Shown one piece after another: positions 3,980-54,952 of a stretch of DNA of 64,000 nt; positions within the stretch are counted from its first letter, which is position 1, and each line of letters opens with the position of its first letter. The stretch is from Muricea muricata (lineage: Eukaryota > Cnidaria > Anthozoa > Malacalcyonacea > Plexauridae): the NCBI GenBank assembly GCA_963855995.1, contig OY979717.1, positions 61,968,243 to 62,032,242 of the forward strand, written 5' to 3'. The notes under the pieces were generated by a model. The model was not told the DNA's origin, made no database searches, and saw nothing but the letters and a program-made list of their open reading frames with translations. The position numbers and the translations under genes are program-made.

Positions 3980-4191
3980 CATATACGCGCTTAATCCTTC
4001 GGGTAGCTGGTCGAAAACTTTGCTGGAGAAAATATACTTGTTATCCTTAATTTTGTTCATCAATCCTTACCGTAACGAGACAAAGTTTGCAAGAAAAGAA
4101 GACTACAAATTATCAGCAACATCTGGACAGGGTTATTGCGCAGCAAAACCGTGTACTGTCTTTTTTGCCAGGGATTGAAAATCCCCTCATT

Positions 4192-9076: not shown

Positions 9077-9202
9077 TGGTATTTTACATGTTTTCTTAAG
9101 TTGGGGAGAGAAATGTGATGATAGATTATGGTAAGATAATCAAAGGATTTTGCATTGTTTTAATCGTAACTTTAGGAACGATTCTGCTTGAAACAATCTT
9201 GG

Positions 9203-9492
9203 GTGGGTTGTGGTCGTGCAGAAAGTGGGTAATTTTCTTTTTTAATTCTTACAACTACTGCAATTTTGTGGCTCATTTTTGAACAGACGGTGTTTAAAAT
9301 TGATCAAAAAAATTACAGTAGGCGTAAGAATTAAAAAAAAATTATCAAAACGATAATCGGATTATTTCCGGAAAAATTTAAGAAATCTTAGTACAGTCGT
9401 AGCAGAAAGAATCGCAACACTATACTCTTGTAGACAGGTTAAAAACATTCCAAATGCGATAATTGTAAAAATTGATTTTTATTCTACTGTAG
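9203..9492 (+). other. Predicted phase-1 intron between HEPN and NACHT exons, unit A
   Basis: Donor TTGG|GTGGGT and acceptor TATTCTACTGTAG|GTTGTCC are aligned with those of unit C. Because the upstream exon has gained 2 nt, splicing here would leave the NACHT exon out of frame with HEPN. Confidence 0.55.
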
Positions 9493-17764: not shown

Positions 17765-18265
17765 CAATCTCGTTCCCCGAGCCTGCGATTCCTTGGGAAG
17801 GAAACGGAGGCTCTGGGATAATCCGTGATCGACCTACAAAAAACTGTATGTCACCCGTACTGCGCATGCGTAGGAAATAAGCCACAAAAGCATTTTTCTA
17901 AAGTTTTTTGGAACAGTATTTGTACTATTTTGTTTGTAATGTTAGTGGAAAATATTATTTTATTTCATTCTGTGTTGGACGAAGCGTTAGAGCGACTGGG
18001 TAAGAAGAATCTCAAATTGAAGGAGTGTCAATACGAAGCGGTAAAGGCTGTTGTTGTCGACCGGAAAGATACGATTTGTATATTGCCTATTGATCATGGA
18101 AAGTCACATATATACCAGCTTCTTCCCTATTGCGTCTTATTGAATCTATTTATTTGATACGCATGCGCAGTACGGGCGACATACAGTTTTTTGTATGTCG
18201 ATCACGGATTATCCCAGAGCCTCCGTTTCCTTCCCAAGGGATCGCAGGCTCGGGGAACGAGATTG
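17765..18265 (+). mobile_element. MULE-like TIR element carrying a helicase fragment
   Basis: A 501-bp element with terminal inverted repeats of about 106 bp (17765-17870 and 18160-18265) differing at about three positions, starting CAATCTCGTTCCCCGAGCC. It is flanked by a perfect 9-bp direct repeat TTACACCCA (17756-17764, 18266-18274), and removal of one copy restores the LINE frame. Long TIRs plus a 9-bp target duplication point to the Mutator-like superfamily, though no transposase is present to confirm it. The interior carries a piece of a RecQ-type helicase gene. Confidence 0.75.
17940..18154 (+). pseudogene. RecQ-family helicase N-terminal fragment inside the TIR element
   Basis: Translation gives LKLKECQYEAVKAVVVDRKD followed by CILPIDHGKSHIYQLLPY. 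The first part corresponds to the RecQ motif 0 (Q motif). The second corresponds to motif I, which normally reads LPTGxGKSxxYQ; here PTG has become PID, so the nucleotide-binding loop is damaged. The fragment ends in the inverted repeat without the remaining helicase motifs. It looks like a captured host or transposon gene piece; a remnant of the element's own helicase is the alternative. Confidence 0.65.
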
Positions 18266-20360
18266 TTACACCCATTGATCTCATGTTTTCTAGCAATTTA
18301 TTGTGATCGATGAGGTCGAAAGCTTTGCGAAAGTCGAGGAAAACTATCCTAATCACTCTATGCCGTTCGTCCATTAATTTGTGCCAATTATGTAGTAAAT
18401 TAACTAAGGCATTAACTGTCGATGATCGCGGTAAACCACCATATTGAGAATCCGAAATTTTCCCAGTGGTATCATCATACATCCACTTAACTGCAAAGGT
18501 TTCTTGGATTTTTGCCAGGACACTTGTTAAAGCAATTGGTCTTAAATCATCAGCAAGCGTACAAGGTATTGATTTTGGAATACCTGACACTTTATAATCC
18601 TTCCAAACTTTAGGAAAAGTTTTAGACTGAAAGGATTCATTGAAGATTTCGGTCAAGGGTACAGCAAAGTACTTTGCAAATATCTTCAAGATTTTCAGTA
18701 ATGGATCGTTAGGGCCAGGTGCTTTATTAACATTAATTTTCTGCAGTTCTTGTTGCACTTCATCGACGGTAATTAGTGGCAAATTTTCCGTGCAATGAAG
18801 TTCTAGCCATTCTTTTCCCACTTTTGGGTAATCCTTAGTTAAGTTTGCAAAGAAATGGTTTATGAAGCAAGCAGACTGTTTATCATCCATCAACAGCCCA
18901 GTAGAGGGATCCACCATCGTTGCTTTAGCCGACTTTTTGCCAATCAAACGCTTAATGACTTTCCACCAAGATTTTGGGCGATTTTTTAGATTTGGACCTA
19001 CTTTATTCTCGTAGAAAAAGATTTTTGCCTTCCTAATCTCTGCCGAAATCTGACTTCTGAGCTTCTTTACACGCTCGGTATTGTTTCTTTTAAAAGCCAT
19101 GTTCCTTTTAGAAATCAGGCGTTTTATTTTTGGTGTCATAAAGGGTTTGTCCTTACTGTGCATTCTGACTGTCCTTTCCGGAAAATATTCAGCGATCATA
19201 TTATTGGTAATATGCAGAAACGTATTAACTTTTTCATCGGTACCAGAGATGTTGAGCACAGAAGACCAATCGTAATTTGCTAATAAGGCATCAAAACGTT
19301 CTAACTGCTGTTGTCGAAACTTTCTTACTTTAATTTTAACCGTATTTCCTTTTTCTGAAATGTTACACTTAGATTTCCAGTTAATGATGTTGTGGTCCGA
19401 AGTTGAAAGTGGAGCCAGAATTGCTGGAGTCTGGTAGCAATCAGCCATATTAGTAAAAATTAAATCCAATGTACTAGTGTCTCTAGTAGGGTGCATTACA
19501 ATTTGTTTCAAGTTACAGTGTCTCTCTAAACGTTTCTGTTGGAAGCCATTACTAGCCGGATTGAAGTCACCTCCGAGAATAATGGCAGTATTTGGGCTTT
19601 CGACGCAGAGCTTGTCATAACAAGTGATAAAATAGTCATAAAAATTTTCAATCTCAGATGTAAGAAGACTTGGAGGAAGGTATACACATCCCAATGCAAT
19701 CCTTGAAATTGATCTTGGTAGCCACTTCGGCCGGATAGTAACCCATAAACATTCAAAGAATTGACCGTTTAATTCATCACGTATTTTTAATGGTATATCA
19801 TGATTAACATAAATTGCTACTCCCCCGCCTCTTCCACACAATCGGTCTCTTCTGACAATGTTTAGGCCAGAAACATTAACAATCTCATCAGGGACAGTGT
19901 CTGCTAGCCATGTTTCTGTTACGAAAATTAGGTCTGCTCTGTAGCTTTCCTTGAGCACTTCAAGTTCATTTACTTTATTAGTTAATGATCTTGCATTCGA
20001 CAACATTAGGTTAGGAACAGCTCTTTCATTTCCTTTCACAGATTTTCCGTCTGAGACTCTATCAGAATTGGTAGAGACCTCACTTAGATTGTTATAATCA
20101 GATCTAAAAATACGGACTTTAACAAGATTGCCAAAGTTTCGTGTGCGCATCGATTTTGTTCGGCTGAAATGCTGACCTCTGAGCCTACCCATACCAAGTA
20201 CTGTAGAAATGCTTTGCATATGTTTCTCTGCCATTATGCGTACGTCGTCGTATCGTCGTCATCTTCGTCGGAATTTAAGTTACTGGTGACTTTCGGACGC
20301 ACAGCCATCGCTCCAAACGTGTATATTCAGTTTAAGGTAGTGAAGAACCTTATACCTTCT

Positions 20361-21839: not shown

Positions 21840-22416
21840 ACGCAACTCTATGCGTAAGCAAGTTAGAACATAGCAAAGTTATCTCTGTTATGTCTTTGAA
21901 ACCCCTAAATAGTGGTGCGGGTATTTGTTCAAGCTTTATTTTCGTGCATATGCTTTTGACAACCAGGCTCAACTTTGAAATGTTCAGCTCACTGTAGAAG
22001 CTCACTGCAGAACAACGAATAGTTGTTGTTCAGTTTACTTAATAAAATACATTATCTTAATATGATAATTTATGCATCAGAACACGTGACATAATTAGAG
22101 CGGGAAAACAGCAGTGAGATAAAAGCACGCTGAATTTAGTCGGACAGTTTATCAGGAAAATTTAAGTTAAAGTTATGTTTGTAAAGTGATATGGAGGCCA
22201 AAGAAGTAAGTCTAGATACACTGCACATTTCTGTAAATTAACAGTTGTAACACAACTGATAAAGTAATATTATTATTATTTGTAGATCGAATACGATTAT
22301 ATTTTAAATACACTTATACGATATTTGGAAATCTGTCGCTTTACGAACATGTTTCTGATTCTGGCGAGCCAAAAATTCGATTTCTTGCTGACCTGGGGTT
22401 AAAGGATAATCAGAAA

Positions 22417-23567
22417 ATGGCAGAAGCAACGGCAGAAGCGTTAAAAGAAGCAAAAAAGAAGCGAAGATGTGCAAAATCGAGCGTAACAAGAGCAGGTAAT
22501 GGCTTGGATTATTTATTACAGAACAATAGACCGAAACCGGAAGTCGAGGAATCATTGGCTAATTTGGAAGCTTTATACAAGAAATTAATTGAAAAACATG
22601 AAGAATATATAGAGTTGGTTGATACTAATGAAGAATTTACTGCAGAAGAAGTTTGGATTGCCGATTGTAAGCAGAGATTTATACAGTTGCGAATAAAAAC
22701 CAAGGATTATTTAATGGTCAAGTCACAAGGTCAGTCAGTAGAAAATGCTATTGAGAATGAAGCAACCCCTGAACTGACAATGGAACATAGTGGAATAGAA
22801 GTAACTGTTAATGACGGTGGGGAACAAGGTGATGAAGCTAACCCGGGGTCTGGCCAGAACCCATCTCAGCAAGGTCAAGGTCAAGAGACTGTCAGTTTGA
22901 ATGAAAACAATGATAGTGATTTGCATGTGCAACCTATTTGTAGTTTCAAAATGGAAAAACCAAAACTGCCCAGATTTAGTGGTGATGTTAGAGAGTACAG
23001 TATTTTCGAGATGACTTTAAGCATGCTATAGAAGCTAGATATAGCAAACGAGATGCCATGACATACCTTCGTGCTTGCCTGAAAGGCAAACCCCTTGAGC
23101 TTATGAAGGGAATCGGTAATGATTATGATGGAGCATGGAAATATTTGGAATCAATCTATGGGGACCCCAGATATGTGTCAGACCAGGTAACCCAAGACCT
23201 ATCAAAATTCCGACCCCTGAAAGAAGGTGAGGACTCAAGATTCTGTGATTTGGCCCACTTAGTTAAACGTAGCTTCAATACCCTAAAGGGGGTAGGGAGA
23301 CCCCACGATATGGATAACAACCACATATTGTCTTTGATTGAGCAGAAAATGTGTATTGATGATAGAAAGATTTGGGCTCGTGAAGTGGAAAAGGAGAAAA
23401 GTCTGGCCAGTTTACAGGGTCTTATGTCGTGGATGGAGACCGAAATGAAGTCGAGAATGCGAGCCACTGCTCCACTGAGAAGCACTGGGTCAGATACAAG
23501 ACATATCAATCAGTTACTTGCAGGAAAATCAAGTGTTGGGTTTGTGACACATCAACGCATTGGGTAG
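22417..23567 (+). pseudogene. BEL/Pao gag, N-terminal part
   Basis: Begins MAEATAEALKEAKKKRR, a charged coiled-coil lead. It then has an acidic stretch and the family hallmark KPKLPRFSGDVREYSIF, followed by a frameshift near 23020. The core continues from 23058 with TYLRACLKGKPLELMKGIG, GAWKYLESIYGDP and KFRPLKEGEDSRFCDLAH (DUF1759-type). The product would form the retroelement capsid. It is not expected to be functional because of the frameshift. Confidence 0.75.
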
Positions 23568-24540
23568 ATCAGTGTGAAAGATTTAAGTCCATGAGTCCAG
23601 AAGAGCGTCTGAAGACAGTGAGAGAGAACCATGCGTGCTTCAGTTGTCTTAGGAAGGCTGGTCGTGACCACAGAGCATCAAATTGTAGCAGACGAAAGCA
23701 GTGTACACAAAGAACCAACGGTGACCAGTGCAAGTATCATCATCACGTTCTCTTACATCCAGCAAATCCAGCAGCATCTGTGGGTGTCGCGTCAGTAGGA
23801 AACGATACAGAAGCAATGCTACCAGTTATAACGGTTGAGATGTCAGGAAAGGACAATCGGCACAAAAAGGGAAACGTATTACTGGACTCTGGGGCACAAA
23901 TAAGTCTGATTTGTGCAAGCACAGCAAAAACCTTAGGGTTAAAGGGAAAAGACGTATCGATAACCATTAAGAAGGTAGGCGGTGAAGAAGAAGTGTTGGC
24001 GACAAAAGTGTATCAAGTTTCTATCACGTTGTTAGAGTCAGTTTACTGTCAAGGCAGTTGGTATACCACAGATCAGTGATGATATTTCAAAGATCGATGT
24101 TGATAACGAGGCGAAAGTGATTGGCAACACTGAAACAAAGATTTATCGAGAATGCGGCCCAGTTGAAATTCTAATCGGTATTGATCATGCCTACATGCAC
24201 ACGGGAGAGTCGAAGAAGTTTGGCAATGTTGTAGCACGACATTCACCTCTTGGATGGCTTTTGTTTGGAGCGATGCCAGGTACGCAACAGTCGAGTAGAG
24301 TATTCCATGTTCAGTACATCAAACCGGTAGATATTACAGATTTCTGGACAAGTGAAACAATGGGCGTCAGTCAACTAATGAATGAAATGCCAAAGTTGAG
24401 CAAGATCGAGCGAGAGAATCGAAGTTAATCGAACAAGGATGTAAGCTGATTGGGAAGCGATGGGAGATTGCATATCCATGGAGAGTTGATCCCCATACCC
24501 TCCCTGACGACCGAGAGCAAGTTGTGAAAAGTAACTGAAA
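23520..24540 (+). pseudogene. BEL/Pao zinc knuckle, aspartic protease and RT start
   Basis: After a frame change the sequence reads CWVCDTSTHWVDQC (zinc knuckle), then HACFSCLRKAGRDH and a further Cys/His group. A retropepsin-like site follows: NVLLDSGAQISLICAS, with the DSGA active-site triad. From 24117 another frame gives EILIGIDHAYMHTGE and VARHSPLGWLLFGAM, typical of the BEL linker. From 24426 the RT lead (LIEQGCKLIGKRWE, YPWRVDPHTLPDD) is recognisable before the sequence breaks. Multiple frameshifts make it inactive. Confidence 0.7.
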
Positions 24541-24599
24541 GGCGATTGTAGGAGAATCCATACCATGCGAAAACATATCAAGAGCAAATGAAGCATCCA

Positions 24600-25963
24600 C
24601 AGTCAGATGTGGATCCACAGTCAGTCAAGAGGTTTCAAACCATTTGTATCAAGTAGAGTCGCAGAGATCCAGACAAATGGCGATCCGTCGACATGGCGAC
24701 ATATACCAAGTGAGCATAATGTGGCTGACGACTTATCAAGAGGAGTCTTGTCTGTAGTTACTGTTCCAACCGTAATTGATGCAACAAAGTTTTCAAAGTG
24801 GAAACGATTCGTGAGAATAACGGCGTGGATTTTACGTTATGTACAGAACTTGCGATGCAAAAAAAAACCGAAGAAAGAGATTGACCCGTTGATACCTGAT
24901 GAGTTGGAACGAGGTGAAAAGTTTTGGATCAAGACAGCACAAAGAGAATTACACGAACGTGTTGAGAAGAAAGAATTCAACATGCTTAGTCCATTTACGG
25001 ATGAAAAAGAAATTATACGAGTAGGCGAACGAGCAGATAAAGCTATAGTCACTTATGATTCGAAGCATCCAGTTCTACTACCAAAGAATCATCACATTTC
25101 TTACCTAATTACCTAAGAAACGCATGAAACAAATCATTCTGGAGTAGCAACGACTACTGCACTAACAAGAAGAAAATTTTGGATTATCGGAGTACAAAAG
25201 TTGGCGAAGTCTATCAAGAAGAAGTGCGTTTATTGTAAGAAATCACATCCGAAGATTGAGTCGCAAGTTATGGCTGAGCTTCCAAAGATTAGGTTGATGC
25301 CTCATACACCAGCGTTTTACCATACAGCTTGTGACTATTTTGGCCCGTACAAAGTCAAAGTCGGAAGAAATAAAACTGCCAAACACTATGGCGTATTGTT
25401 TACTTGTTTGAACACGCGTGCGGTTCATTTCAAACTGGCAACTGAGTCTGATTGTACAACAATGGAGTTTATTCAAGTACTCCGTAGATTCTTTGCAATA
25501 ATACCCTTCATTGATGTTGAGTGATAACGGAACACAACTAGTCGGTGCAGAGAGTGAATTGGCAAGAATGATCGAAGGTTGGGATGAAAGGAAGCTCAAG
25601 GAGTACGCAGCAGATAAAAGAATCAAGTGGATATTTATTACACCCAATGCCCCACATCAGAATGGATGTGCCGAGTCGCTAGTTAAAAGTTGTAAAATAG
25701 CCCTCAAACAAGCTATGGGAGAGAACTTGTTAACAGCTTTCGAACTGTACACCGTTCTTTTAGAAGTAGCAAACATCGTTAACCAACGTCCAATAGGAAG
25801 ACCAATTAATGATCCAGATGACGGGACATACCTGTGTCCAAATGATCTATTGCTAGGAAGAGCGTCTTCCCACGTACCTCAAGGACCGTTCCTAAAGACG
25901 AACAATCCCAGACATAGAGTTGAATTTTTGCAAAGAATCCTTCCTAGATTCGTTGCACAAAAG
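24600..25963 (+). pseudogene. BEL/Pao RNase H end and integrase
   Basis: Starts with FVSSRVAEIQTNGDPSTW and HNVADDLSRG, the C-terminal end of RNase H. Integrase follows: the HHCC-type zinc region (HETNHSG around 25124, CVYCKKSH) and the catalytic core with ACDYFGPYKVKVGR, TCLNTRAVHFKL, LSDNGTQLVGAESEL and ITPNAPHQNGCAESLVK. D, D and E of the DDE triad are visible. A frame change occurs near 25515 and a stop interrupts near 25113. The tail ends early at PRFVAQ. Confidence 0.75.
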
Positions 25964-26347
25964 TGTAAAATATAATTAACTTTTAACCAAGCTTTTTCAT
26001 TCATCCCGTATTCTTCCAATCGCTATCGCCAGATTTTTCTGTTTTAGCAATTTGTTTTACGCGGAAACGCGTCTCAAAATTGGATGCGGTTTTTACACAC
26101 TCTGTAGAAGTTGCTGGAACGTCATCCGGAATCGAGGGGCGTTTGCATAAATAACGAACGCCTCCTGAGGGACAAGATTATAGGGATGGGTCAACAATAT
26201 TTTTAATTTAAAATTAAAAATTTTTTGTTGAGATCCCCCATATTCTTGTCAGCCCCTATAATAGATAGTGCCTAAATTATGGTGGAACCATATATTGGAC
26301 ATGATTACAAGTTACAGTCTACACGCAATTCTAAATTGAGTTCCCAG
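25964..26347 (+). repeat. Repeat flank shared by units B and C
   Basis: GCACAAAAGTGTAAAATATA and the following 380 bp recur at 38939-39333, and the beginning again at about 63850-64000. Non-coding. It lies just before the Kolobok-like element in both complete cases. Confidence 0.6.
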
Positions 26348-30612: not shown

Positions 30613-31692
30613 ATGAGTTCTGAGGTCAATGATTTGTTGCGAAGAAGAAATGATCCTGGTTATCTTAACTGGCTAGCTGTGACTGATGCTCTTATGCTCC
30701 TCAGTGATGGTCTCCGACCGTATGCAGAAAGTAAAATGAAGGAACTCCATGCTTTAATTACAACAAATGTTGGCGGACCTGGAGTTAGATGCCTTTGCAG
30801 TTGTGTCCCTGGGAAGAAATCGAAATCAAACCCTCATGGAGGAAGAGCGCCTTGCACCTGGGCACAACAATTGAAGAATTTTCACAATTTCTACAACAAG
30901 AATGCTATTCCTTGGCATCAAAGTCTTAGTAGCCAATGGCATGATCCAGTCAACGGATACTGGGAGATCGCAAAGTTATTCATGTGTGATTTAGAAAAAA
31001 ATTGAGCAACAGTTAAAGACGCCAAATGTACTGATGTTGGACCCTTGCTAACTTGCTAAAGATAATTTTGTAAGTATTTTAAAATCCAGCATTCTTCATT
31101 GGAGGCCGTTAAAGACTGGCGTAATAAATGTACTCATATCCAGAGCGAACACTTAGCGACATTGATAAGCAAAATGCCTTTAAAGACATTGAAATTTTAG
31201 TGAATGATCCTGAGCTGGCTGGGATCAAAGAAGTTCAAGACGTCCGCTCCATTATCAAGAAGACAGAAACGGCAGATATCTCAATATTACAAAATGACGA
31301 GCTAAAGATTATTCAAGAATTTTCGCGCGAATGTCAAATTGAAACACAAGCAGAAATTAGGGAGGTTTCAAAAAAGATCGACAAATTGGAAAGCGTTGTG
31401 AACGAATTGACAAAAGGTGTTTATAAATTATTAGAAGGTGCAGAGAAAGTGGTTAGATGTTCGGTTTCTGCTTTTCCATTGGCACTTTTATTCGCAGTGT
31501 ATTTGACTGTACATGTGCGCAAGATCCCAGGAATGTTGTGGTCTTTAATGGTATTTTACATGTTTTCTCAAGTTGGGGAGAGAAGTTTGATTATAGATTA
31601 TGGTAAGAAAGCCTTTTGAGTTGATCCTTAAGGTTGCAAGGATCAAAGGATTTTGCATTGATTTTGCATTTAACTTTAGAAACGATTTTTGG
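30613..31692 (+). pseudogene. HEPN membrane exon, copy 2 (inactivated)
   Basis: Aligned to copy 3 throughout and starting at the same ATG (MSSEVNDLLRRRNDPGYLNW). A Trp codon has become TGA in DLEKN (31003-31005). Small indels follow at about 31040-31075, and a 1-nt deletion just after the R-N-x-x-x-H motif region destroys the frame there (copy 3 KCAHAPERTL). The coiled-coil and first membrane segment remain readable from 31128. The last membrane segment is rearranged before the expected donor at 31693. No complete HEPN-membrane protein can be made. Confidence 0.8.
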
Positions 31693-32016
31693 GTGGGTTG
31701 TGCGAAGTTGGGTTGTGGTGGTGTAAGTGGGTAATTTTCTTTTTTAATTCTTACAACTACTGTTATTTTGAGGCTCATTTTTTGAACAAACGGTGTTTAA
31801 AATTAAGCGAAAAATTACAGTGGTCGTAAGAATTAAAAGGATATTTTTTCAGTTCATTTAATCTGAATTAAACAGATAATGGGATATTTCAGGCAAATTT
31901 AAAAAAAAATCTTAGTACAGTCGTAACAGAAAGAATCGCAACACTATACACTTGTAGACAGGTTAAAAACATTCCAAATGCGATATTTGTAATAATTCAT
32001 TTTTATTCTACTGTAG

Positions 32017-35000
32017 GTTGTCCAATTGCAACAACAAAGTCACCAATAAGCCATTTCCATTTCCAAGAATTTGATTTCTCTTCTTACCTTGCATACAAAA
32101 GCGAGGGATTCGTTGGTCGTAAGTGGTTTTTCTTGGAATTAGAAAATATCTTTGAAGAAAGTCCAAGTACCGCGGGTGTTCTGATTATTGGTGAACCTGG
32201 GTCTGGAAAATCAGCACTAATGTCGCAACTGATATGTTCACCATTTTCCAGTTTGTTTATACATGAAAATACAATTGGTTATCATCTGTGTGAATATTCT
32301 GAAAAAGGAAAACGTGACGGAGCAAGATTTGTACGTAATTTAGTTGATCAAATTGCGGTTAAATTGCCTAAATATTCCGAACATGTCAAGAATAATGAAC
32401 GACTACGGATGGAACTGGATACACGTTGTCATAAAGATCCTACGAGCTGTTTCTTCACGGCAATTGTGGGTCCTCTACGAAAGCTAGAACAACCTAATAC
32501 CCTACGATTTATCATAATTGATGCTTTGGATGAATGTTTTGAAAGTGATTCCATGACATCCGAAATTTTGAATATTTTGAAAGGCAAAATACTAGCTTTC
32601 CCAAAGCGGTTAAAGATCATATTTAGGTCTCGAAACTTGACCTCAGTCACATCTAGAATTCCTCAGGTTGTCAAAAGGATGCCATTGTACGCAGCTGACG
32701 AACGGAATGTAAATGATGTCCGTTTTTATGTATCGCGTTTCATGTCCCAAAATTCGAATTTCATGGATAAATTGTTAATTGCAATGGATTATAGCTCACG
32801 CATCAAAGGTATAAAACTCTTCATGGACGAAATAATTATCCGAGCAGAAGGAAACTTTTTGTTTGTAAAAACAACATTGCAATACATGAATGACACAGGT
32901 GGGAAAGTCGATTTTCATTCCTTACCCACAAGTCTGTTTGATTTGTATAACATATTCTTTGACAAACAGTTTAGTACAGCTGGGTTCGCTCCATTCAGGT
33001 TTCTATTTGAAGTGTTGTTGGCGGCTTATTCGCCTCTACAAGCTCAACACGTTGAAGAGATCCTTAAAAGCGAGTATGAAGCGGACGATTATATCAAACT
33101 TACAGAGCAGGTGTCTTGTTTCTTGCGATTTGGACAAGATGGAACAATAAGAATTTACCATCAGTCGTTCGCAGAGTGGTTAACAAATCAATCTCCTTTT
33201 CTTTCCATTAACAAAACACGAGGCCATCTACATATTGCCAGGTTTTTAATGCGTCATATGCGAGGAAGGCACGCGAATGTCGCGTTTGGTGAACTAACTG
33301 AACTTTTTATCCACATTTTGTCAGGAGGAGAATTGAATACACAAGAAACTGCTGTTAATCTTTTTAACGTTACAAAAATGCGCAAGGCCAAAACTAATCA
33401 ATCCATACTACATTATCTGGCGACAAAACCAATAATCTATCTGCCTGTATTTGATTTCTTCTTACAAAAGTTTAAAACGGTTGACATACTTAATGCAAAT
33501 AACAAGACACCCGCGTTTTATGCCGCATCTGAAGGAAATGTCAGACATTTGCAAAGTTGCATTAAAAATGGAGCTAACATTAGTTCGTTTTTGGAGGGAT
33601 ACTCAGAGTTAGATCCTGTTTCTGTTATTGTTACAAATACAGGTATTGAAAAATTTAGCCTGATGCACGTAGCAGCTGCTAAAGGACATAAGGAGATCGT
33701 TCAACTTCTATTACAAAGCAACATACGCTTTCTCAATTTTGGGAGACGTTATCCAACACCTCTTCATTTAGCAGCGTCAAGTGGTCATTTGGAAGTAGTT
33801 ATAGGCTGTTTTATGATTATGATGAAACGTTTGATTTAATCACACTTCATCATGCAGCAGCGAGAAATCATATTTCAGTTGTTATTTTTTTACTATCGAC
33901 AGTTGGTCTACGAGACATTTGTGTACCATGTCAACCTGAAGGCTTCTCAGAAATTGGTGAAAATATGTCTCCAGAAAAAACGCACGCATCTTTTTTGTGA
34001 AACAGCTCTACATGCTGCAGCATCTCGAGGGCTGATTGATATTGTAGAGCTGCTGTTAAATTTTGGAAAGGAATCTCTTGAATGCAAGCATCATTCTGGG
34101 AAGACAGTTTTGATGGACGCCGTGGAAAGCAATGATACCAAAATGGTGGATTTACTATTGACGTCTGGAGCAAATATCACGGCGGCCTGTGGACGTAAAA
34201 TGTCAAAGGATAGTGTAAATCAAATCTGTTCTGCTTATGCTACCCACAAGAAAGATTTTTGTATACAGTTTACTGCGTGAATGACATGAGTTGTAGATGT
34301 GGTTACACAGCTATTCATATCAGTGCCAAATATGGGTTGTGGAACATTGCAGAAAAATTGCTTCATGGAAGAACTGAAGACATATTAGACATTAAAGATT
34401 GTGCCAATGATAGTGCTACACTAGTTGCCATTATATATGATCACATCGACTTTGTTAACAATATTGACATGTCTCTGAACAAAATAAAACAATATTTAGT
34501 TGGATCAAAAGTGGTCAAACTAGCAACAGCATACTGTTCGGCTGATGTAGCAAATGGTTTCTTAGATCATATAATTCATAACGATGAGAACATATGGAAT
34601 ATTCTAATGGAGCTTGTTAAATGGTCACCGTGTGACCAATCAACGATAATACATAATTCCTACTGCTTAAATGCTTTTAAAAATAGTGAACTTTGTGAAG
34701 CAGAAACGAAAGAGAAGGAATCGAAAAGGCGCTTGAATGTAATTAAGTTGTTAATGGAAACAGATCAGAAATCATTAATCTTGGACAGGAAAGATCACAA
34801 AAATAGGACACTTTTGCATTACGCTGCTTTAAATGGATTTGTTAGGGCTGTAAAATACCTGGTTGAACTTGGTGCTGACGTACGTTTAAACGACAAAAAT
34901 CGTGACACACCATTAATGATTGCATTAAAGTACTCGCCAGTTAATGACCAAAATCCCAGTGCTTCATATACCTGCTACACTACAAACGACGGTCAGTTTA

Positions 35001-37816
35001 GTTCCTGTAAGACTAGTACCTGCTACGATGAAACTGTTAGGTACCTTATTCAGGAACAGAAAGCAAATATTTCAAAATGTGACAATGAAAGTGAACTTAT
35101 GTTGATGAAAATAACTGGAAAACAAATGCCCTTGAGTTTGTACGCCTTGTTGAAAATTGGTGTTGACTGGAATTGCCGCTTGAATGCTTCCACCTCAGCA
35201 ATGTTGTTTCATTTACACGTGGGAGGTAGAGAAATAACGGATGTGATAAAAATCTTTGCAGTTGATGTTTCTGTCAAATGTGGAATTTCTTTTTCAGACT
35301 CAGAACTGCATCAGCTGTCCTACGTTTCAACACCTGAAGTCGGTAATTTCTTTGAACCTTTCCTAAACAAGAAACGTTCTCCTCTACAAAGGTTAATTGA
35401 TCGTCATCCTAGAGGTGTTCGCATATTGGACGAATGTTATGATGCAGATGGATATTTACCAATACACAGAGCTGCTCAAGGTGGAAATCTTGTTTCTTTA
35501 AAATGGTTAAAAAATGTCGGAGTTAACATACAGCTCAAAACACGAACTGGTTTCACTGCTCTTGGTCTTTCTGTGTGGTATGTAACACATCATAGTATGG
35601 ATACTTACGGGCATGGTAATAAATTCTTTGAAGAAGTGTTGCGAGCATTTTTTGACATTTCGCATACAAACTACAGTTCAGATTATTGCACTACTTCATT
35701 CGCCAGACACCCTATTTTACATAGGGCAGCTAGCATTGGACTACATGTGGTGGCAAGTGTATACAACAAGGCTTTAAACATTATGCCAGGTTTGAGGAAG
35801 AGGAAGTATATGCTTCTTGATGAGCAAGATGCGGACGGAAATACAGCTCTTCATTTCGCAGCTACCAAAGGTCATGAACATGTTTTTAAATACCTTGTGG
35901 GACTTGGTGCAGATATTAATATCAAGAACAAGAACTACCGCACTCCAATATGGTTTGCATTGTTGTCGGCTCCCGTTCATTCAGTTAAAACTGATATAGT
36001 TCACCGCTGTTACACTACAGATGACGGTTTATTTAAGACTTGTGATACTACACCCCATGATGAAATCGTAAGGTACTTGATGTCAATGCAGAAGCCAGAA
36101 AGTATCTCAACTTGTGATGATGAGAGTGCATTTTTTTTACATAATGTCGTTGAAAAACGGATGCCTCTTAGTTTGTATGTCTTGTTGAAAATTGGTGTGG
36201 ATGTTAATTGCCAATCGGATATATGGAGTTCTCCATTTTTAGAGAATCTGAGAAGAGGAGGACAGGAAATAAGTGAAGTGTTCAAAATATTTGAAGTGAA
36301 TATTTCTGTCCATTGTGGGATATTTTTTACTGTTTCGGAGCTGCACCTTATTTCGTACAAATCTGTAACTGATGATTTTGGCAATTTCTTTAAACCTTCT
36401 TTAAATAAGAAACGTTCTCCTATGCAAAGATTGATTGACTGTCATGCTAGAGGTGTTCGCATATTGGACGAATGTTATGATTCTGAAGGATATTTACCAA
36501 TACACAAAGCTGCTCAAGGTGGAAATCTTGTTGCCATAAAATGGTTTAAAAGTGTTGGAGTTAACACACAGCTGAAAACACGAAGTGGTCTCACTATTCT
36601 TGATATTTGCATAAAATATTTGAAGGATGGTGATATCTACGATAAATACTCTAAAAATTTGAACGCTATTGTTAAGAGAAATACGAAATATCGACGTGAA
36701 TGCTTTAAAAAACTGCTGCGAGCGTATTTCCTCAAATCAGATAAAAATTGCTCTTCAGAATTTTCTAGTATTTCCTCTTGTAATCTGCACATTTTGCACA
36801 CTGCTTCTGGCATTGGACTAGAAGTAGTCACTGACGTGTATAATATGGCTTTACAGGTCATACCATGTTTGAAGAAGAAAGATGATAAATATTTACTTCT
36901 TAATGAACAAGATGTGAACGGAAATACGCCACTTCATGTTGCAGCATTCAGTGGTCGTGAACGTGTGGTTAAATATCTTATTGGACTTTGTGCGAATATT
37001 ACTATTAAGAACAAAGACGGTCAGACTCCATTATTGTCAGCTCTGTTAACAGTTCCTATTTATTTTATCGGGAAACCAGACGTGGGTCAGCACTGTTACA
37101 CTACAGTAGACGGTTTGTTCACGTTTTGTGAAACCACTGTCCATGATAAAATCACAAGTTACCTTATCTGGTTACAGAAATGAAACATATCAAAATGTGA
37201 TAATCACAGTGCATGTTTGTTAAGTGCTGCGATTGAGCTGCGTAAGCCACTCAGTTTGTACGCCTTGTTAAAAACTGGTGTTGATTTAAAATGCCAAAAG
37301 AATGAGTCCAGTTTCCCATTTTTACAACATATCAGACAAGGAGGTACGGAAATAAGCGAAGTGTATGTTTGAAGTGAATGTTTCTGCTCATTGAGGCGAT
37401 TTATTTGCTCTTTCGGCACTGCATCTTGTCTCATACGTTTCGGTATCTCATGATTTTGGTAACTTTTTTGAGCCCTCTCGCAATAAAAAACATTCCCTCT
37501 TCCAAAGATTGATTGACAGTCATCCTAGCGGTGTTCGCATATTGGACGAATGTTATGATGCTGAAGGATATTTACCAATACACAGAGCTACTCAAGGTGG
37601 AAATCTTGTTGCCATAAAATGGTTTAAAACTGTCGGAGTTAATATGCATCTGAAAACAAGAACTGGACTTACTGCTCTTGATATTTCGATATTGTACTTA
37701 GATGTAAATAATGGGGAACTTGATGCACCGTCCAAAATTTTTCTATATTTAAAACAAATCAATTTGCCCGTGTCTTTGCATACGACGTTGAAATATCGAA
37801 AAGATATACTTAATGA
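32017..37816 (+). pseudogene. NACHT-ankyrin exon, copy 2 (frameshifted, truncated)
   Basis: The exon begins after TATTCTACTGTAG, as in the other units, with no ATG in the lead (TTKSPISHF). NACHT is intact in sequence: GEPGSGKSALM, FIIIDALDECFE and YHQSFAEWL, although sensor LTSR reads FRSR. Lesions against copy 1: a 2-nt insertion near 33799 (GTTATAGG for GTTAGG), 1 nt gained near 33990, 1 nt lost near 34254, a TCA to TGA stop at 37181-37183, and further indels and a stop at about 37365-37420. Similarity ends at 37816, so about 900 bp of C-terminal coding sequence is absent. The long open stretches show that decay is recent. Confidence 0.85.
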
Positions 37817-38151
37817 AAAGCTGACTTTTTTGAAAAGCTGAATTAATTTAAAAAGTACTCAAGATATAACACCTAAATACCCAGGTCTGGATGTTAAACA
37901 TAGCCTACACACATGTAAGTGTAGTTTTAGTTATTTTCCACTATTACATGCTACAAAATAAGCAATCTAACAGTCGCTCATTATGCAGTATGACGTCACT
38001 GGTTAGGTAATTTTCAAATCAAATAAAATTGAATATCTCGAAAAGTAAGACAGTTACAAAAATTCTATCAAAGAAGTTATACAGTGATTTTAACTGATCT
38101 TTCCAATGCAATAAGAAAATTGTTGGAGAAAATTTCGTTTCATAAGCACTT
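37817..38151. other. Junction sequence after unit B, nothing recognised
   Basis: Sequence between the broken end of the unit B gene and the dispersed repeat; no match elsewhere in the window. Contains one TGACGTCA at 37991-37998, which may be chance. Confidence 0.35.
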
Positions 38152-46898: not shown

Positions 46899-47952
46899 AT
46901 GAGTTCTGATGTCAATGATTTGTTGCGAAGAAGAAATGATCCTGGTTATCTTAACTGGCTAGCTGTGGCTGATGCTCTTATGCTCCTCAGTGATGGTCTC
47001 CGACCGTATGCAGAGAATAAAATGAAGGAACTCCATGCTTTAATTACAACAAACGTTGGCGGACCTGGAGTTACATGCCCTTGCAGTTGTGTCCCTGGAA
47101 AGAAATCGAAATCAAACCCTCATGGAGGAAGAGCGCCTTGCGCTTGGGCACAACAACTGAAGAATTTTCACAATTTCTACAGCAAGAATGCTATTCCTTG
47201 GCATCAAAGTCTTAGTAGCCAATGGCATGATCCAGCCAACGGATACTGGGAGATCGCAAAGTTATTCATGTGTGATTTAGGAAAAAATTGGGCAACAGTT
47301 AAAGATGCCAAATGTACTGATGTTGGACCCCTTCTTAACTTGCTAAGATTTTGTAAGTATTTTAAAATCCAGCATTCTTCATTGGATGCCGTTAAAGACT
47401 GGCGTAATAAATGTGCTCATGCACCAGAGCGAACACTTAGCGACATCGATAAGCAAAATGCCTTTAAAGACATTGAAATTTTAGTGAATGATCCTGAGCT
47501 GGCTGGGATCAAAGAAGTTCAAGACGTCCGCCCCATTATCAAGAAGACAGAAACGGCAGATATCTCAATATTACAAAATGACGAGCTAAAGATTATTCAA
47601 GAATTTTCGCGCGAATGTCAAATTGAAACACAAGCAGAAATTAGGGAGGTTTCAAAAAAGATCGACAAATTAGAAAGCGTTGTGAACGAATTGACAAAAG
47701 GTGTTTATAAATTATTAGGAGGTGCAGAGAAAGCGGTCAGATATTTGGTTTCTGCTGTTTCATTGGCACTTTTATTCGCAGTGTCTTTTACTGTGCGTAA
47801 GATCCCAGGAATGTTGTGGTCTTTAATGGTATTTTACATGTTTTCTCAAGTTGGGGAGAGAAATGTGATGATAGATTATGGTAAGATAATCAAAGGATTT
47901 TGCATTGTTTTAATCGTAACTTTAGGAACGATTCTGCTTGAAACAATCTTGG
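46899..47952 (+). CDS. HEPN-coiled coil-membrane exon, copy 3 (intact)
   Basis: Starts at the ATG of CAAAATGAG, shared by all units. Residues 17-175: DZIP3-like HEPN domain, with LNWLAVADALMLLSDGLRPY, a Cys loop (CPCSC), and Arg169-Asn170...His174 in DWRNKCAHAP, the R-N-x-x-x-H motif of HEPN ribonucleases. About 225-275: charged helix/coiled coil. Membrane segments at about 281-299 (LVSAVSLALLFAVSF), 304-317 and 333-351 (FCIVLIVTLGTILLE). The exon most likely ends with G at 47952 and splices in phase 1 to 48264, making the N-terminus of a 2580-residue HEPN-TM-NACHT-ANK protein. If unspliced, translation runs three more codons and stops at 47966, giving a separate 355-residue membrane protein. 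Confidence 0.8.
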
Positions 47953-48263
47953 GTGGGTTGTGCTAAGGTGGGTAGTGGTGGTAGGTAATTGTGGGTAATT
48001 GTCTTTTTTAATCCTTACAACTACTGCAATTTTGTAGCTCATTTTTGAACAGACGGTGTTTAAAATTGAGCGACAAAATTACAGTAGGCGTAAGAATTAA
48101 AAAGAAAATTTTATCAAAACGATATGATGGATTATTTCTGGAAAATTTTGAGAAATCTTAGTACAGTCGTAGCAAGAAGGAATCGCAACACTATACACTT
48201 GTAGACAAGCTAAAAACATTCCAAATGCAATATTTGTAAGAATTCACTTTTATTCTACTGTAG
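47953..48263 (+). other. Predicted 311-bp phase-1 intron, unit C
   Basis: Donor CTTGG|GTGGGT, acceptor TTTTATTCTACTGTAG|GTTG. It joins G|GT as a glycine codon, so that TILG continues as CPIAITKSPIS. The acceptor is conserved in all three units and the reading phase fits exactly. The in-frame TAA at 47964-47966 is removed. Confidence 0.7.
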
Positions 48264-51200
48264 GTTGTCCAATTGCAATAACAAAGTCACCAATAAGCCA
48301 TTTCGATTTCCAAGAATTTGATTTCTCTTCTTACCTTGCATACAAAAGCGAGGGATTCGTTGGTCGGAAGTGGTTTTTCTTGGAATTAGAAAATATCTTT
48401 GAAGAAAGTCCAAGTACCGCGGGTGTTCTGATTACTGGTGAACCTGGGTCTGGAAAATCTGCACTAATGTCGCAACTGATATGTTCACCGTTTTCCAGTT
48501 TGCTTATACATGAAAATACAATTGGTTATCATCTGTGTGAATATTCTGAGAAAGGAAAACGTGACGGAGCAAGGTTTGTACGTAATTTAGTTGATCAAAT
48601 TGCGGTTAAATTGCCTAAATATTCCGAACATGTCAAAAATAACGAACGACTACGGCTGGAACTGAATACACGTTGTCACAAAGATCCTACGAGCTGTTTC
48701 TTTACCACAATTGTGGGACCTTTACGAAAGCTACAACAACCTAATACCCTACGATTTATCATAATTGATGCTTTGGATGAATGTTTTGAAAGTGACGCAA
48801 TTTCATCATCCGAAATTTTGGACATTTTGAAAAGTAAAATAATGGCTTTCCCAAGGTGGTTAAAGGTCATATTGACTTCTCGAAATTTGACCTCAGTTAC
48901 ATCTAAAATTCCTCAAGTTGTCAATAGAATGTCACTATACGCCACGGACAAACGGAATGTAAAGGATATCCGTTTTTATGTGTCTCGTTTTATGTCTCAA
49001 AATTCGCATTTTTTTGACAGAATGTTTGCCGCAGTTGATCCGATTAATTCACGGACTAAAGGCATTAAAATATTCCTTGACGAAGTAATTACCCGAGCAG
49101 AAGGCAACTTTTTGTTTGTGGCGACAACATTACAATACATAAGCGATACGAGGGGGAAAGTTGATTTACAGTCCTTACCGACAAGTTTGTTTGCTTTGTA
49201 TAAGGAATACTTTGAAAGACAATTTAGTGTCGATAGATTTGGTCCGTTCAGGTTTGTTTTAGAAGTATTGCTGGCGGCTTATTCTCCTCTTCAAGCTCCA
49301 AACTTTGAAGAGATTCTTAAAAGTGAATACGAAGTGAACAATTTTGCAAAACCTATTGAAAAAGTGTCTTGTTTCTTGCGATTTGGACCAGATGGAACAG
49401 TGGCAATATATCATCAGTCGTTCGCTGAGTGGTTAACAAATCAATCTCATTTTCTTTCCATTAACAAAACACGAGGTCATCAAAGTATTGCTAAATTTTT
49501 AATACGTCACATGCGAGAAAGACACGGGAATGTCACGTTTGGTGAACTAACTGAACTTTTCATGCATATTTTGTCAGGGGGAGAATTGAATATACAAGAA
49601 ACTGCGATGAATCTCTTTGATATTACAGAGATGCGTGAGGCAAAAATGAACCAATCTATACTACATTATCTGGCGACAAAACCACCAAACTATCTTCCTG
49701 TACTTGATTTTTTCTTGCAGAAGTTTAAAATGATTGACGTCCTTGATGCAAATAACAAAACACCTGCGTTTTATGCCGCATCTGAAAGAAATGTGAGAAG
49801 TTTGAAAAGTTGCATTGATAATGGCGCTAATGTTGCTTCGTTTTTGGAAGGATTCTCCGAGTTAGATTCAGTCTCTATTGTTGTTACAAATACAGGTATC
49901 GAAGAGTTTAGCCTGATGCACTTAGCAGCTGCTAAAGGATACGAGGAAATCGTTGAACTTTTATTACAAAACAAGATGAGCTTTCTCGATTTTGGGAAAC
50001 GTTATCCAACACCTCTTCATTTAGCAGCGTCAAATGGTCATTTGGAAGTGGTTAGGCTGTTCTATGATTACAATGAAACGTTTGATTTAATCACACTTCA
50101 TCATGCAGCAGCAAGAAATCACTTTTCAGTTGTTAATTATCTACTATCGACAGTTGGACTACGAGATCGTTGTGTACCATGTCAACCTGGACACTTCTCA
50201 GAAATTAGTCATAAGAAACTGACTACACAGGAAAGTCACGGATTTTTTTGTGAAACAGCTCTTCATGCTGCAGTATCTCGAGGCCTGATTGATATTGTAA
50301 AGCTGCTGCTAAATTTTGGAAAAGAATCTCTTGAATGCAAGCATCATTCTGGGAAGACAGTTTTGATGGACGCCGTGGAAAGGAATAATACCAAAATGGT
50401 GGATTTACTATTGACGTCTGGAGCAAATATCACGGCGGCCTGTGGACGTAAAATGTCAAAGGATAGTGTAAATCAAATCTGTTCTGCTTATGCTACCCGC
50501 AAGAAAGATTTTTTGTACACAGTTTACTGCGTGAATGAAAGTTGCAGATGTGGTTACACAGCTGTTCATATCAGTGCCAAATATGGGTTGTGGAACATTG
50601 CAGAAAAACTGCTTAGTGGAAGAACTGAAGACATATTAGACATTAAAGATTGTGCTAATGATAGTGCTACACTAGTTGCTATTATATATGATCACAAAGA
50701 CTTTGTCAACAATATCAACATGTCTCTGAACAAAATAGGACACTATTTAGTTGGATCAAAAGTGGTCAAACTAGCAACAGCATACTGTTCGGTTGATGTA
50801 GCAAATGGTTTCTTAGATCACATAATTCATAATGATGAGGACATATGGAATGTTCTAATGAAGCTTGTTAAATGGTCGCCGTGTGACGAATTAACGATAA
50901 TACATAATTCCCATTGCTTAGATGCTTTTAAAGATAGTGATCTTTGTGAAGCAGAAACGAAAGAGAAGGAATCGAAAAGGCGCTTGAATGTAATTAAGTT
51001 GTTAATGAAAACAGAGCAGAAGTCATCAAACTTGGACAGGAAAGATCACAAAAATAGGACACTTTTGCATTACGCTGCTGCTAATGGATTTGTTGGGGCG
51101 GTAAAATACCTGGTTGAACTTGGTGCTGACGTACGTTTAAACGACGAAAATCGTGACACACCATTAATGATTGCATTAAAGTACTCGCCAGTTAATGACC

Positions 51201-54200
51201 AAAATCCCAGTGCTTCGTATACCTGCTACACTACAAACGATGGTCAATTTAGTTCCTGCAAGACTACCTGCTACGATGAAACTGTAAGCTACCTTATTCA
51301 GGCACAGAAAGCAAATATTTCAAAATGTGACAATGAAAGTGAACTTATATTGATGAAAATAACTAGAAAACAAATGCCCTTGAGTTTGTACGCCTTGTTG
51401 AAAATTGGTGTTGACTGGAATTGTCGCTTGAATTTTCTCACCTCAGCAATGCTGCGTCATTTAGATTTCGGTGGTGAGGAGGTCACTGAAGTGATAAAAA
51501 TATTTGAAGTCGATGTTTCTGTAAAGTGTGGAATTTCATTTTCAGAGTCCGAGTTGCATAGATTGGTCTACTTTTCAGCACCCGGTGAATTTGGAAATTT
51601 CTTTGCACCTTCTTTAAATAATAAACGCTTACTATTACAGATATTAATTGATCGTCATCCTAGAGGCGTTCGTGTATTGGACGAATGTTTTGATGCTGAA
51701 GGATATTTACCAATACACAGAGCTGCTCAAGGTGGAAATCTTGTTGCTTTAAGATGGTTGAAAAATGTCGGAGTTAACATACTGCTCAAAACACGAACTG
51801 GTCTCACTGCTCTTGATCTTTCTTTGCTTTACTTAAGAGATCATAGTGAGAATACACATGTTAGGTATCGAAATAAATGTTTCGAAGAAGTTTTTCATGC
51901 ATTTTTGGTCTCATCACATAAAAACTACAGCTCAGATTTTTCCACCTCCCGTTTTTCTAAACACCCTATTTTACACGCAGCAGCTGAAATCGGACTAGAT
52001 GTGTTGATAGATGTATACAGCAAGGCTTTGGAAATGATTCCAGGTTTAAAGAAGAGAAAGTTTGTACTTCTTAATGAACAAGATGAGAAGGGATTTTCAC
52101 CTCTTCACATTGCAGTATATCATAGTCGTGAACGAGTTGTTAAGTATCTTGTGGACCTTGGCGCTGATATTAATATAAAGGACAACAACAACCTTACTCC
52201 ATTATTGTTTGCACTGTTGGCAGTTCCTGTTCATTCCAATAAATCTTATCTAGATAATCGTTGTTACACTACGGATGACGGTTTGTTTACGTCTTGCGGA
52301 ACTACCGCGCCCCGTGACGAACTCGTAAGATATTTGATCTCACAGCAGAAATCAACTATCTCGAAATGTGATGGTGAAAGTGCCTTTTTATTAAATATTG
52401 TGATTGAAAAACGAATGCCCCTGAGTTTGTACGCTTTGTTGAAAATTGGTGTTGATATTTATTGCCAACGGAACGAATGGAGTTCGCCATTTTTACAGCA
52501 TATGAGAAGGGGAGGGCGGAAAATAAGCGACGTGTTCAAAATATTTGAAGTGAATATTTCTGTTCAATGTGAGATGTTTTTTATTTTTTCAGAGCTTCAC
52601 CTTCTTTCATACATACCTGTATCAGATGATTTTGGTAATTTCTTTAATTTTTCTCTAAGCAAGAAAAAGTCTCCTTTTCAAAGATTAATTGACAGTCATC
52701 CTAGAGGTGCTCACATACTGAACGAATGTTACGATGATGACGGATATTTACCAATACACAGAGCTGCTCAAGGTGGAAATCTTGCTGCTATAAAATGGTT
52801 TAAAAGCGTCGGAGTTAACACACAGCTGAAAACACGAGATGGTCTCACCGCTCTTGATATTTCTGCAAATTATTTGACAGGTGATAGCTATGTGATCTAC
52901 TTGAATAATTTTGTTCAGGAAAATACGAAATATGGACGTGAATGTTTTAAAGAACTGCTGCTAGCACATTTTGACAAGTTGCAGAAAAATTACAGTACAG
53001 GGTTTTCTAGTATTTTACACACTGCGGTGAAAATTGGTCTGGAGTTTGTGAAAGATGTATACGAAATTGCTTTAAGTATCATACCAGGCTTGAGAAAGAG
53101 CAAATATCTGCTTCTTGATGAGCAAGATGCTGATGGAAATACACCTCTTCATGTCGCAGCCATCAATGGTCGTGAACGTGTTGTTAAATATCTAGTGGGT
53201 CTTGGTGCAGATATCAATATCAAGAACAAAGGGAACAATACTCCAATGTTAACTGCACTTTTTGCCATTAAGACCTACATGGAAAACCGCTGCAACACCA
53301 CTGTAGACGGTTTGTTCACCTTATGTGGAATCACTGTCCATGATGAAATTACAAGTTACCTTATCTGGTTGCAGAAATCAAGTATATCGAAGTGTGATGA
53401 TGACACTGCTCTTTTGTTAAATATTGTGATTGTAGACCGAATGCCCCTAAGTTTATACAGTTTGTTAAAAATTGGTGTTGACATTCATTGCGAAGCGGGT
53501 ATTTGGAGTTCCCCATTTTTAAAACATGTCACACGCGGAGGTCGGGAAGTTAGTGAAGTGTTAAAAATGTTTGAAGTGACTGTTCCTGCTAAATGTGGAA
53601 TTTCGTTTAGGCTTTCTGAGCTGCACCTTATCTCCTACACTTCAGTATCTCACGATTTTGGTAATTTTTTTAAGCCTTCGCAAAATAACAAAACTTCTCC
53701 TTTTCAAAGGTTAATTGACAGTCATCCTAGAGGTGTTCGTCTATTGGACGAATGTTATGATGCTCAAGGATATTTACCAATACACAGAGCTGCTGAAGGT
53801 GGAAATCTTGTTGCTATAAAATGGTTTAAAGGCGTCGGAGTTAACACCCAGTTAAAAACACGGAATGGTCTTACTGCTCTTGATATCTCTATATTATACA
53901 TAGGAAATGCCAATCATAGAGAACCTAAGGTTCGTTTCATAAATGGTTTTCCTGTTTTTTTTCATTGGAGGCATCCTCCTTTGATGCTGTCAAAATATCG
54001 AACGAAGGTGTTTAAGGAATTACTGGCGCTTGCCACCACAATGACTATGCCAGCGTTTCAATGTGGTCCAGCCTTAGAAGGGCTCTCTCCGCTTCACATA
54101 GCAGCTGTAAAAGGGATGTCCGTGTTACAGTACGTCCACGAAGAAGCATCTAAGATATTTCCTAGTTTTCCAATAAACTGTGTTAATAAACACCAGTTAG

Positions 54201-54952
54201 ATCCGTTGTATCTGGTTCAATTTTATGAGAGTCTTAAGAATGAAGGGTTAATCTATAAATATTCGGCAGAAAGTTCTGACGACGTAGATGAAAAGACCGA
54301 ACGTGGAAAGACAGGAAATGAAAACAACCTTGATTCAAAATTTAGTCATAGTGGTAACACTAGTGTGCCTGCTCCTCAATATCCAGATCGTGAAGTCGAC
54401 TACATAATGGCGTTCAATTATTTATATCGTGATTTGTCTTCTGGGCATGAACCATATCGACTATATCGAAATTTATTTGAATTAACATTTAAGGATGTAC
54501 GTATAGAGGACTGTCCAAGTTATTATAGCAACTTTCCGAAATACGAAGATGCTGAATCCATACAAGGAAAGGCTGATCAGTCTCAATGCGGTTCAAAAAT
54601 ACCTTATAATTACTACAGGACAATATGTATGCGCGAAATCAATGAATACAGAATTTTTGCGTGGAAATGTAATGAAATGCTAAAAATACTTCAAATGCAA
54701 ATGAAATTCAAAAGAAGAAACCGTCGATTTAGTCAGCTAATTTTGAGAAGATTGGGCTGGAGCAATGATGATTTACAGGGAAAAAATATCGATAATGGAT
54801 GGCCATTTTATTTTTTACATAAAAAGCGCATGAAGAAATACGAGGCCTTTAAGTATATTGAAACTTTAAATGCAGCTCTCGAAGTTGCATATATCTACTT
54901 TCATGACAATCATATATATAACTTATTCACGGATGTGTTTGAAGATGATTAA
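48264..54952 (+). CDS. NACHT-ankyrin STAND exon, copy 3 (intact)
   Basis: Open for 2229 codons after the acceptor. There is no ATG before the Walker A motif: the first Met is the one in GKSALMSQL, so initiation inside this exon would lose the P-loop, which argues for splicing to the HEPN exon. NACHT: TGEPGSGKS, FIIIDALDECFE, LTSR, winged-helix end YHQSFAEWL. Then ankyrin repeats in the same order as copy 1, the three Cys supermodules (CYTTNDGQF, CYTTDDGLF, CNTTVDGLF), and a C-terminal tail with GWPFYFLHKKRMKKY. It is clearly diverged from copy 1 in the NACHT C-terminal half and in the later ankyrin units, but nearly identical around 50270-51420. Likely an ATP-dependent sensor or scaffold tethered to a membrane by the HEPN exon; ligand unknown. 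Confidence 0.85.

Follow-up and report, generated by a model that had tools for sequence, protein, structure and literature searches.

A two-exon gene family of Muricea muricata predicted to join a HEPN domain, a hydrophobic segment, and a TANC-like NACHT-ankyrin region

HEPN domains of the CXorf38 family are listed with double-stranded RNA-binding (dsRBD), NACHT, ankyrin, CARD, and DEATH domains as partners, in organisms that include Nematostella and Branchiostoma (Anantharaman et al. 2013, PMC3710099; this and the other papers cited here are quoted from the portions available to us). The same paper names fusions to NACHT and DEATH in cephalochordates and cnidarians, reports a zinc (Zn) ribbon within the CXorf38 HEPN domain, and proposes an RNase L-like role for these proteins. 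DZIP3-HEPN-NACHT proteins and related expansions are covered in PMC8260672, PMC10236652, PMC9646362, and PMC8195603. HEPN-NACHT proteins are expanded in corals, other cnidarians, and bivalves (PMC8260672, PMC10236652, PMC9646362), and expanded anthozoans have 17 to 83 of the DZIP3/hRUL138-like kind (PMC8260672). The available portions of these three papers give no trigger, place, or activity for HEPN-NACHT proteins; TMHMM was applied in PMC8260672 to TLRs and CTLs. Here, we analyzed a locus at positions 46899-54952 on the + strand of a 64,000-nucleotide (nt) stretch of Muricea muricata DNA (the window), hereafter unit C. On our reading, unit C probably encodes a 2556-amino-acid (aa) STAND receptor with a HEPN domain, a hydrophobic anchor, a TANC-like NACHT domain, and an ankyrin sensor, in which RNase clustering would take place at a membrane.

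How does this locus compare with the described systems? Like the CXorf38-HEPN proteins of PMC3710099, unit C has a DUF4559 HEPN domain with a Zn-ribbon insert and an Rx4H motif, together with NACHT and ankyrin partners; the available portion of that paper names no membrane segment, splice structure, TANC-type NACHT, or swap for a DZIP3 HEPN domain in the group. With the DZIP3/hRUL138-like HEPN-NACHT proteins of cnidarians and bivalves, unit C shares an N-terminal HEPN effector, a NACHT switch, and a repeat sensor, but in the portions seen those proteins have a HEPN domain of another family and their named repeats are LRR, WD40, or TPR. The initial annotation of this locus named no described animal protein with its exact domain order. 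The partnership of HEPN, NACHT, and ankyrin domains is in fact given in PMC3710099, whereas no HEPN-transmembrane-NACHT-ankyrin protein was met in the available parts of the literature searched, mostly outside subscription journals. A literature search for CXorf38 with NACHT or with Nematostella returned nothing beyond PMC3710099. New here are the shared hydrophobic helix, the conserved intron, and DZIP3-HEPN paralogues with helix and NACHT in one frame; NACHT and ankyrin were already known as partners of the CXorf38 HEPN domain.

In the open-frame listing, unit C appears as a 355-residue frame (46899-47966), a gap, and a 2259-residue stop-free frame (48173-54952) on the same strand. Comparison within the one genome used for all paralogue comparisons (453 Mb in 74 contigs) indicates that unit C is most likely a single two-exon gene, 46899-47880 joined to 48264-54952, whose joined product has 2556 aa. 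Its parts are as follows.

46899-47880, + strand: exon 1, 982 nt, phase 1, with the CXorf38-type HEPN domain, a linker, and the hydrophobic segment (from the open frame, the DUF4559 match, and the GTAAG donor).
47881-48263, + strand: intron, 383 nt, phase 1, holding an earlier proposed donor (47952/47953) and a third hydrophobic stretch (from splice scores and copy alignment).
48264-54952, + strand: exon 2, with the NACHT domain, TANC1-like lid and winged helix, ankyrin array, C-terminal region, and stop (from the open frame and Pfam).

Seven loci share this layout: five tandem units, of which A, B, and C lie inside the window, Z upstream, and D downstream, and two dispersed, diverged copies, C5 (on contig C5) and C2far (2.0 Mb on contig C2), with exon 1 identities of 54% and 35%. 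All seven copies, the two diverged ones included, have a GTAAG donor at the homologous position and likewise an acceptor, with G-C or A-C at the junction. The donor of unit C is 47880|GTAAGA, in phase 1 (G|GTAAGA after 47880). Its acceptor, TTCTACTGTAG|GTTG at 48264, had been chosen correctly in the initial annotation: it is conserved and has the top score of the acceptors scored within 47980-48430 (the acceptor score was home-made, and the donor matrix used general metazoan frequencies). Phase 1 was checked in C, C5, and C2far; for Z, the open joined frame implies it. The joined proteins of C5 and C2far align through the junction, and four copies are open across it (2556, 2554, 1829, and 1454 aa). 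The frame-keeping of a GT-AG join is by itself weak evidence, because 126 of the 432 GT-AG pairs around the unit C gap keep the frame. Units C and A differ at 30/362 intron sites (indels of 16, 3, 1, and 1) and at 53/982 exon 1 sites (indels of 3 and 2); for C and B the figures are 57/363 and 40/980, and for C and D they are 53/354 and 47/979. The intron of unit Z is 13.3 kb long and contains minus-strand retroelement frames (RVT_1, Pao peptidase A17, and DUF5641; locus L032, 4059-8206), and both Z exons are still open.

The one-gene proposal of the initial annotation is thus supported by comparison as to the joining of the HEPN, membrane, and NACHT-ankyrin parts, but its donor is not. That donor, TTGG|GTGGGT at 47952, also keeps the frame when joined to 48264; the product would have 2580 aa and one more hydrophobic stretch. 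In unit A, the sequence matching 47881-47952 encodes the same 24 residues, although A is frameshifted upstream. However, it scores 1.9 versus 5.03 for 47880|GTAAGA, and 7/7 copies share the 47880 site. The 72 nt of 47881-47952 do not behave as conserved coding sequence: inserts of 31 nt in B and 30 nt in D carry stops, unit Z reads GKVAF and then a stop soon after the donor, and by eye the tails of C5 and C2far after GTAAGG are unlike the unit C stretch. We give this version hardly any credence. With the donor at 47880, the protein is therefore 2556 aa long and the stretch KIIKGFCIVLIVTLGTILLETIL is intronic. Accordingly, the membrane part described earlier keeps its hydrophobic segment between HEPN and NACHT and loses its last (third) stretch. 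Three other donor candidates were rejected: 47967|GTGGGTAG has the highest score (5.68) but lies beyond the stop at 47964-47966; 47352|GTAAGTAT lies within the conserved HEPN domain (score 1.56); and GTGCGTAAG, near 47793, is GCAAG in A and B.

Searching the genome with exon 1 gave 23 matches, and with the DUF4559 profile 20 matches, equal to 19 loci because one broken unit was split; both numbers of matches are minimum values. The two-exon copies account for seven of the 19. Ten others are of another kind, with a HEPN domain and a GGPGFGK P-loop, in one frame in 9/10 and cut by a stop in the tenth; Pfam identified DUF4559, NB-ARC/NACHT, and TPR in the three of these HEPN-NB-ARC loci that were scanned (L036, L038, and L041). 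These ten lie at C11 2.23-2.34 Mb, C1 98.78 Mb, C1 113.16 Mb, and C5 5.0 Mb. The remaining two DUF4559 loci are neighbors on C3:36821300-36843299 (L039 and L040), and one has two dsRNA-binding stretches, dsRNA binding being a partner of the CXorf38 HEPN domain that is reported, in the part of the literature seen, for vertebrates. Two of the tandem copies share the window with unit C.

8144-16190, + strand: unit A, with exons at 8144-9130 (frameshifted before the donor) and 9493-16190 (open).
30613-37829, + strand: unit B, with the same two exons, both broken by stops or frame changes (bounds are tblastn matches).

When the NACHT part of exon 2 served as the query, the genome yielded 53 matches in three tiers: seven loci at 46-100% identity, all with a CXorf38-HEPN exon upstream; two loci on contig C7 at 38% and 36%; and 44 matches at 21-30%. 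The TANC1 wing was found in all seven two-exon loci and in both C7 loci. This C7 pair (C7:12456400-12463600, L053 and L055, and C7:12444600-12448200, L054; frames of 1687 and 1707 aa) comprises the nearest relatives outside the CXorf38-type set. Each paralogue starts with a DZIP3-type HEPN domain (E 2.7e-37 and 1.9e-32), followed by one hydrophobic segment (Kyte-Doolittle 2.28 and 2.63) and then NACHT in an uninterrupted frame; one of them, read further, goes on to the TANC1 wing and ankyrins. The order HEPN, hydrophobic helix, NACHT, ankyrin therefore exists in a single uninterrupted frame. The HEPN end has been exchanged between the CXorf38 and DZIP3 families, in one direction or the other, while helix, switch, and sensor were retained. 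Such a natural exchange marks the HEPN end as a replaceable effector.

Could 46899-47966 instead be a separate gene for a short HEPN-membrane protein, with the NACHT-ankyrin protein encoded by a second gene whose first exon went unseen? Either frame is open by itself, a transcript left unspliced would terminate at 47966, and the case for joining comes from genome sequence comparison rather than cDNA. In units Z and A, moreover, the exon 2 frame contains an ATG ahead of the P-loop. As the initial annotation had stated, units B and C have none, and neither do C5 and C2far, so that three open copies lack it. Against two genes also stand the donor-acceptor pair conserved in 7/7 copies, the alignment of joined diverged copies from one exon into the next, and the C7 pair and 9/10 HEPN-NB-ARC loci, in which a single open frame encodes both HEPN and NACHT. 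We therefore regard two genes as very improbable and keep to a single two-exon gene, which gene models built from single open frames would split in two.

The HEPN end of this gene matches Pfam DUF4559 over residues 11-237 (E 6.6e-26; 91.9 bits against a cut-off of 27). We take DUF4559 to be the CXorf38 family. The Zn insert, the Rx4H motif, and the partnership with dsRBD, NACHT, and ankyrin domains, all given for CXorf38 in PMC3710099, agree with this assignment.

46929-47513, + strand: HEPN core, spanning roughly residues 11-205, with approximate outer limits (from DUF4559, HEPN_Swt1, and the structure model).
47076-47141, + strand: cysteine-rich, putatively Zn-ribbon-like insert in the HEPN domain, C60, C62 ... 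C81 (from invariance in 11 aligned sequences).
47403-47420, + strand: predicted HEPN RNase motif R169-N170-x3-H174 (from the same invariance).

The alignment comprises 11 sequences, including 10 relatives; every one matches both DUF4559 and HEPN_Swt1 at E <= 0.05, and R169, N170, H174, C60, C62, and C81 are invariant among them at identities down to 22%. Unit C fits the HEPN RNase motif rule, Rx4-6H with a polar residue after R (R169, N170, and H174). The AlphaFold2 (AF2) model of the HEPN part is all-helical apart from single bridge residues, with a mean confidence (pLDDT) of 73.9; over residues 11-210, 17 of 20 ten-residue blocks exceed 80, and the rest are at 61, 63, and 73. A PDB sequence search returned no HEPN relative, its two matches having E values of 0.32 and 0.72. 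The R-N-x3-H HEPN domain named in the initial annotation is confirmed by profile and motif, and by the motif rule of PMC3710099 it is a predicted RNase. It may instead be an RNA-binding or dimerization module, with the protein signaling otherwise: catalysis is here read from the motif, and some HEPN families are inactive (PMC3710099, as far as available). We consider this unlikely, given a motif invariant in 11 sequences down to 22% identity, and the DZIP3-type paralogues carry R-N-x3/4-H too.

Downstream of the junction, a Pfam scan bears out the NACHT and ankyrin parts seen earlier, through the P-loop profile NPHP3_N (E 3.1e-22; 80 bits against a cut-off of 24.8), HTH_TANC1 (43.9 bits against 27), and Ank_2. 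The features of a STAND protein are present, namely, Walker A, Walker B (DALDE), sensor, and winged helix, and the motifs are intact.

48407-48883, + strand: NACHT/NPHP3_N P-loop NTPase, Walker B IIIDALDE (from Pfam and motifs).
48437-48460, + strand: Walker A, GEPGSGKS (from motif).
48866-48886, + strand: sensor, VILTSRN (from motif).
49226-49579, + strand: TANC1-like winged helix (HTH_TANC1, E 2.7e-11).
49916-54160, + strand: ankyrin array including three tandem modules of about 345 aa, end approximate (Ank_2, E 1.5e-80, 10 stretches).

The module signatures of unit C are at residues 1466, 1813, and 2155, with a DNA spacing of 1026-1041 nt. Units C, Z, and A each have three copies of the module and C5 has one; a single signature was seen by eye in one C7 copy, and none was found by signature in C2far. 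The ankyrin sensor may have grown by internal duplication.

Leucine-rich repeats, the mark of an NLR in the narrow sense, are absent from the 19 Pfam families listed for unit C, and there was no kinase or KEN match of the RNase L type at E <= 1 in Pfam. Unit C is like RNase L in combining an ankyrin sensor with a predicted HEPN-superfamily RNase, and like IRE1, in its proposed form, in being a membrane-bound HEPN-superfamily RNase. It differs from both (KEN/HEPN) in having NACHT and no kinase-like domain and in its N-terminal HEPN domain of another family. Some RNase L chains are among the Foldseek matches listed for the NACHT-ankyrin model, reflecting a shared repeat class with no sign of kinship. 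As in TANC1/TANC2, a TANC1-like lid (below cut-off) and winged helix stand by the P-loop, followed by ankyrins. To our knowledge, human TANC proteins have no HEPN domain, and the best TANC1-wing locus of this genome, C3:1188886, is a far more distant match (25% identity). Bacterial HEPN-STAND proteins also carry an N-terminal HEPN domain on a STAND NTPase (PMC3710099, portion available), a likeness of domain order.

Between HEPN and NACHT lies the segment that would make unit C a membrane protein.

47733-47852, + strand: hydrophobic segment, residues 279-299, plus a weaker stretch at 305-318 by eye (from Kyte-Doolittle hydropathy).

Its best 19-residue Kyte-Doolittle value is 1.93. All six open copies examined (C, Z, C5, C2far, and the C7 pair), spanning two HEPN families, have such a segment at this place, with values of 1.66-2.63; as a control, the linkers of nine HEPN-NB-ARC loci of the same genome reach 0.26-0.56. 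In C5, a second hydropathy peak (1.23) follows the first; this, like the weaker second stretch in C, would be compatible with a hairpin whose two ends face the cytosol. C2far and the C7 pair each show one prominent hydrophobic stretch. We also weighed a single gene whose segment is a buried or oligomerization helix between a soluble HEPN domain and NACHT, as in cytosolic HEPN-NLRs. NACHT and ankyrin domains need the cytosol, a single pass would part HEPN from NACHT, and the AF2 confidence is below 50 over residues 295-327, all of which suit a helix that does not anchor. The recurrence of the segment in diverged sequences and in both HEPN families, set against the control linkers, speaks for an anchor, and we judge the buried helix rather unlikely.

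With the segment read as an anchor, the following mechanism may be proposed. The protein would be held on an intracellular membrane via the hydrophobic segment, and the ankyrin array would keep the NACHT switch off until a ligand binds. ATP-driven oligomerization of NACHT would then pair the HEPN domains. Metal-independent HEPN RNases need dimers, and for this reason HEPN clustering is proposed to activate cutting. The paired domains would cut RNA locally near the membrane, as RNase L and membrane-bound IRE1 do, and this would probably serve to defend against viral or other invasion or to shut the cell down under stress. The defense role is suggested by the company that the domains keep. Tentatively, and with some doubt, we extend this to a family of innate sensors bound to membranes. 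Each would combine an ankyrin-NACHT switch, seated on a hydrophobic anchor, with one of the interchangeable HEPN RNases (CXorf38 or DZIP3 type); RNA would be cut at the membrane upon sensing, and the sensor would grow by duplication of the 345-residue ankyrin module. If true, this would be an IRE1/RNase L-like logic reached with another set of domains. The family offers a defined test case: its exon borders are specified exactly, four of its genes are open, a catalytic residue is predicted, and the hydrophobic segment can be removed.

Several points weigh against this reading. The main doubt about the mechanism is topology: a single pass, as the C7 paralogues suggest, would place HEPN and NACHT on opposite sides of the membrane, so that the clustering model fits only a hairpin or a non-spanning helix. 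Membrane anchoring is predicted from hydropathy, and the hydrophobic part is conserved more in character than in sequence (C versus C5 dN/dS 0.77 over 37 codons); the gene is under purifying selection. As to the gene structure, the splice sites of C5 and C2far were chosen by eye and their phase checked afterwards, and 3/5 tandem units (A, B, and D) are broken. Some domain matches fall short of their curated cut-offs in unit C: HEPN_Swt1 (residues 116-196, E 2.6e-4), the NACHT profile (E 7.4e-5; 23.1 bits versus 26.7), and the TANC1-like lid (E 0.0039). With the HEPN model, Foldseek returned nothing from the PDB at E <= 0.001. The NACHT-ankyrin model is of low quality (pLDDT 63.7), and the listed 50 of its 500 Foldseek matches are ankyrin proteins. 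A PDB sequence search with the NACHT part likewise gave ankyrin proteins only.

Between the tandem units, mobile-element frames lie at window positions 16764-20258 (- strand), 22237-25975 (+ strand), and 4051-6593 (+ strand) and include endonuclease-reverse transcriptase, aspartyl-protease, and integrase pieces. The frame at 5217-6593 (+ strand) had no Pfam match; by its motif, it is presumably recombinase-like. Elsewhere in the genome, NACHT frames (at least 96 matches) form clusters at C9 8.39-9.31 Mb, C11 13.53-13.69 Mb, C14 10.29-10.44 Mb, and on C15 and C4. A single GFP-family match (C1:100068659-100069087, L052) has stops in its span, possibly introns, and its nearest PDB entries are DsRed-type proteins.

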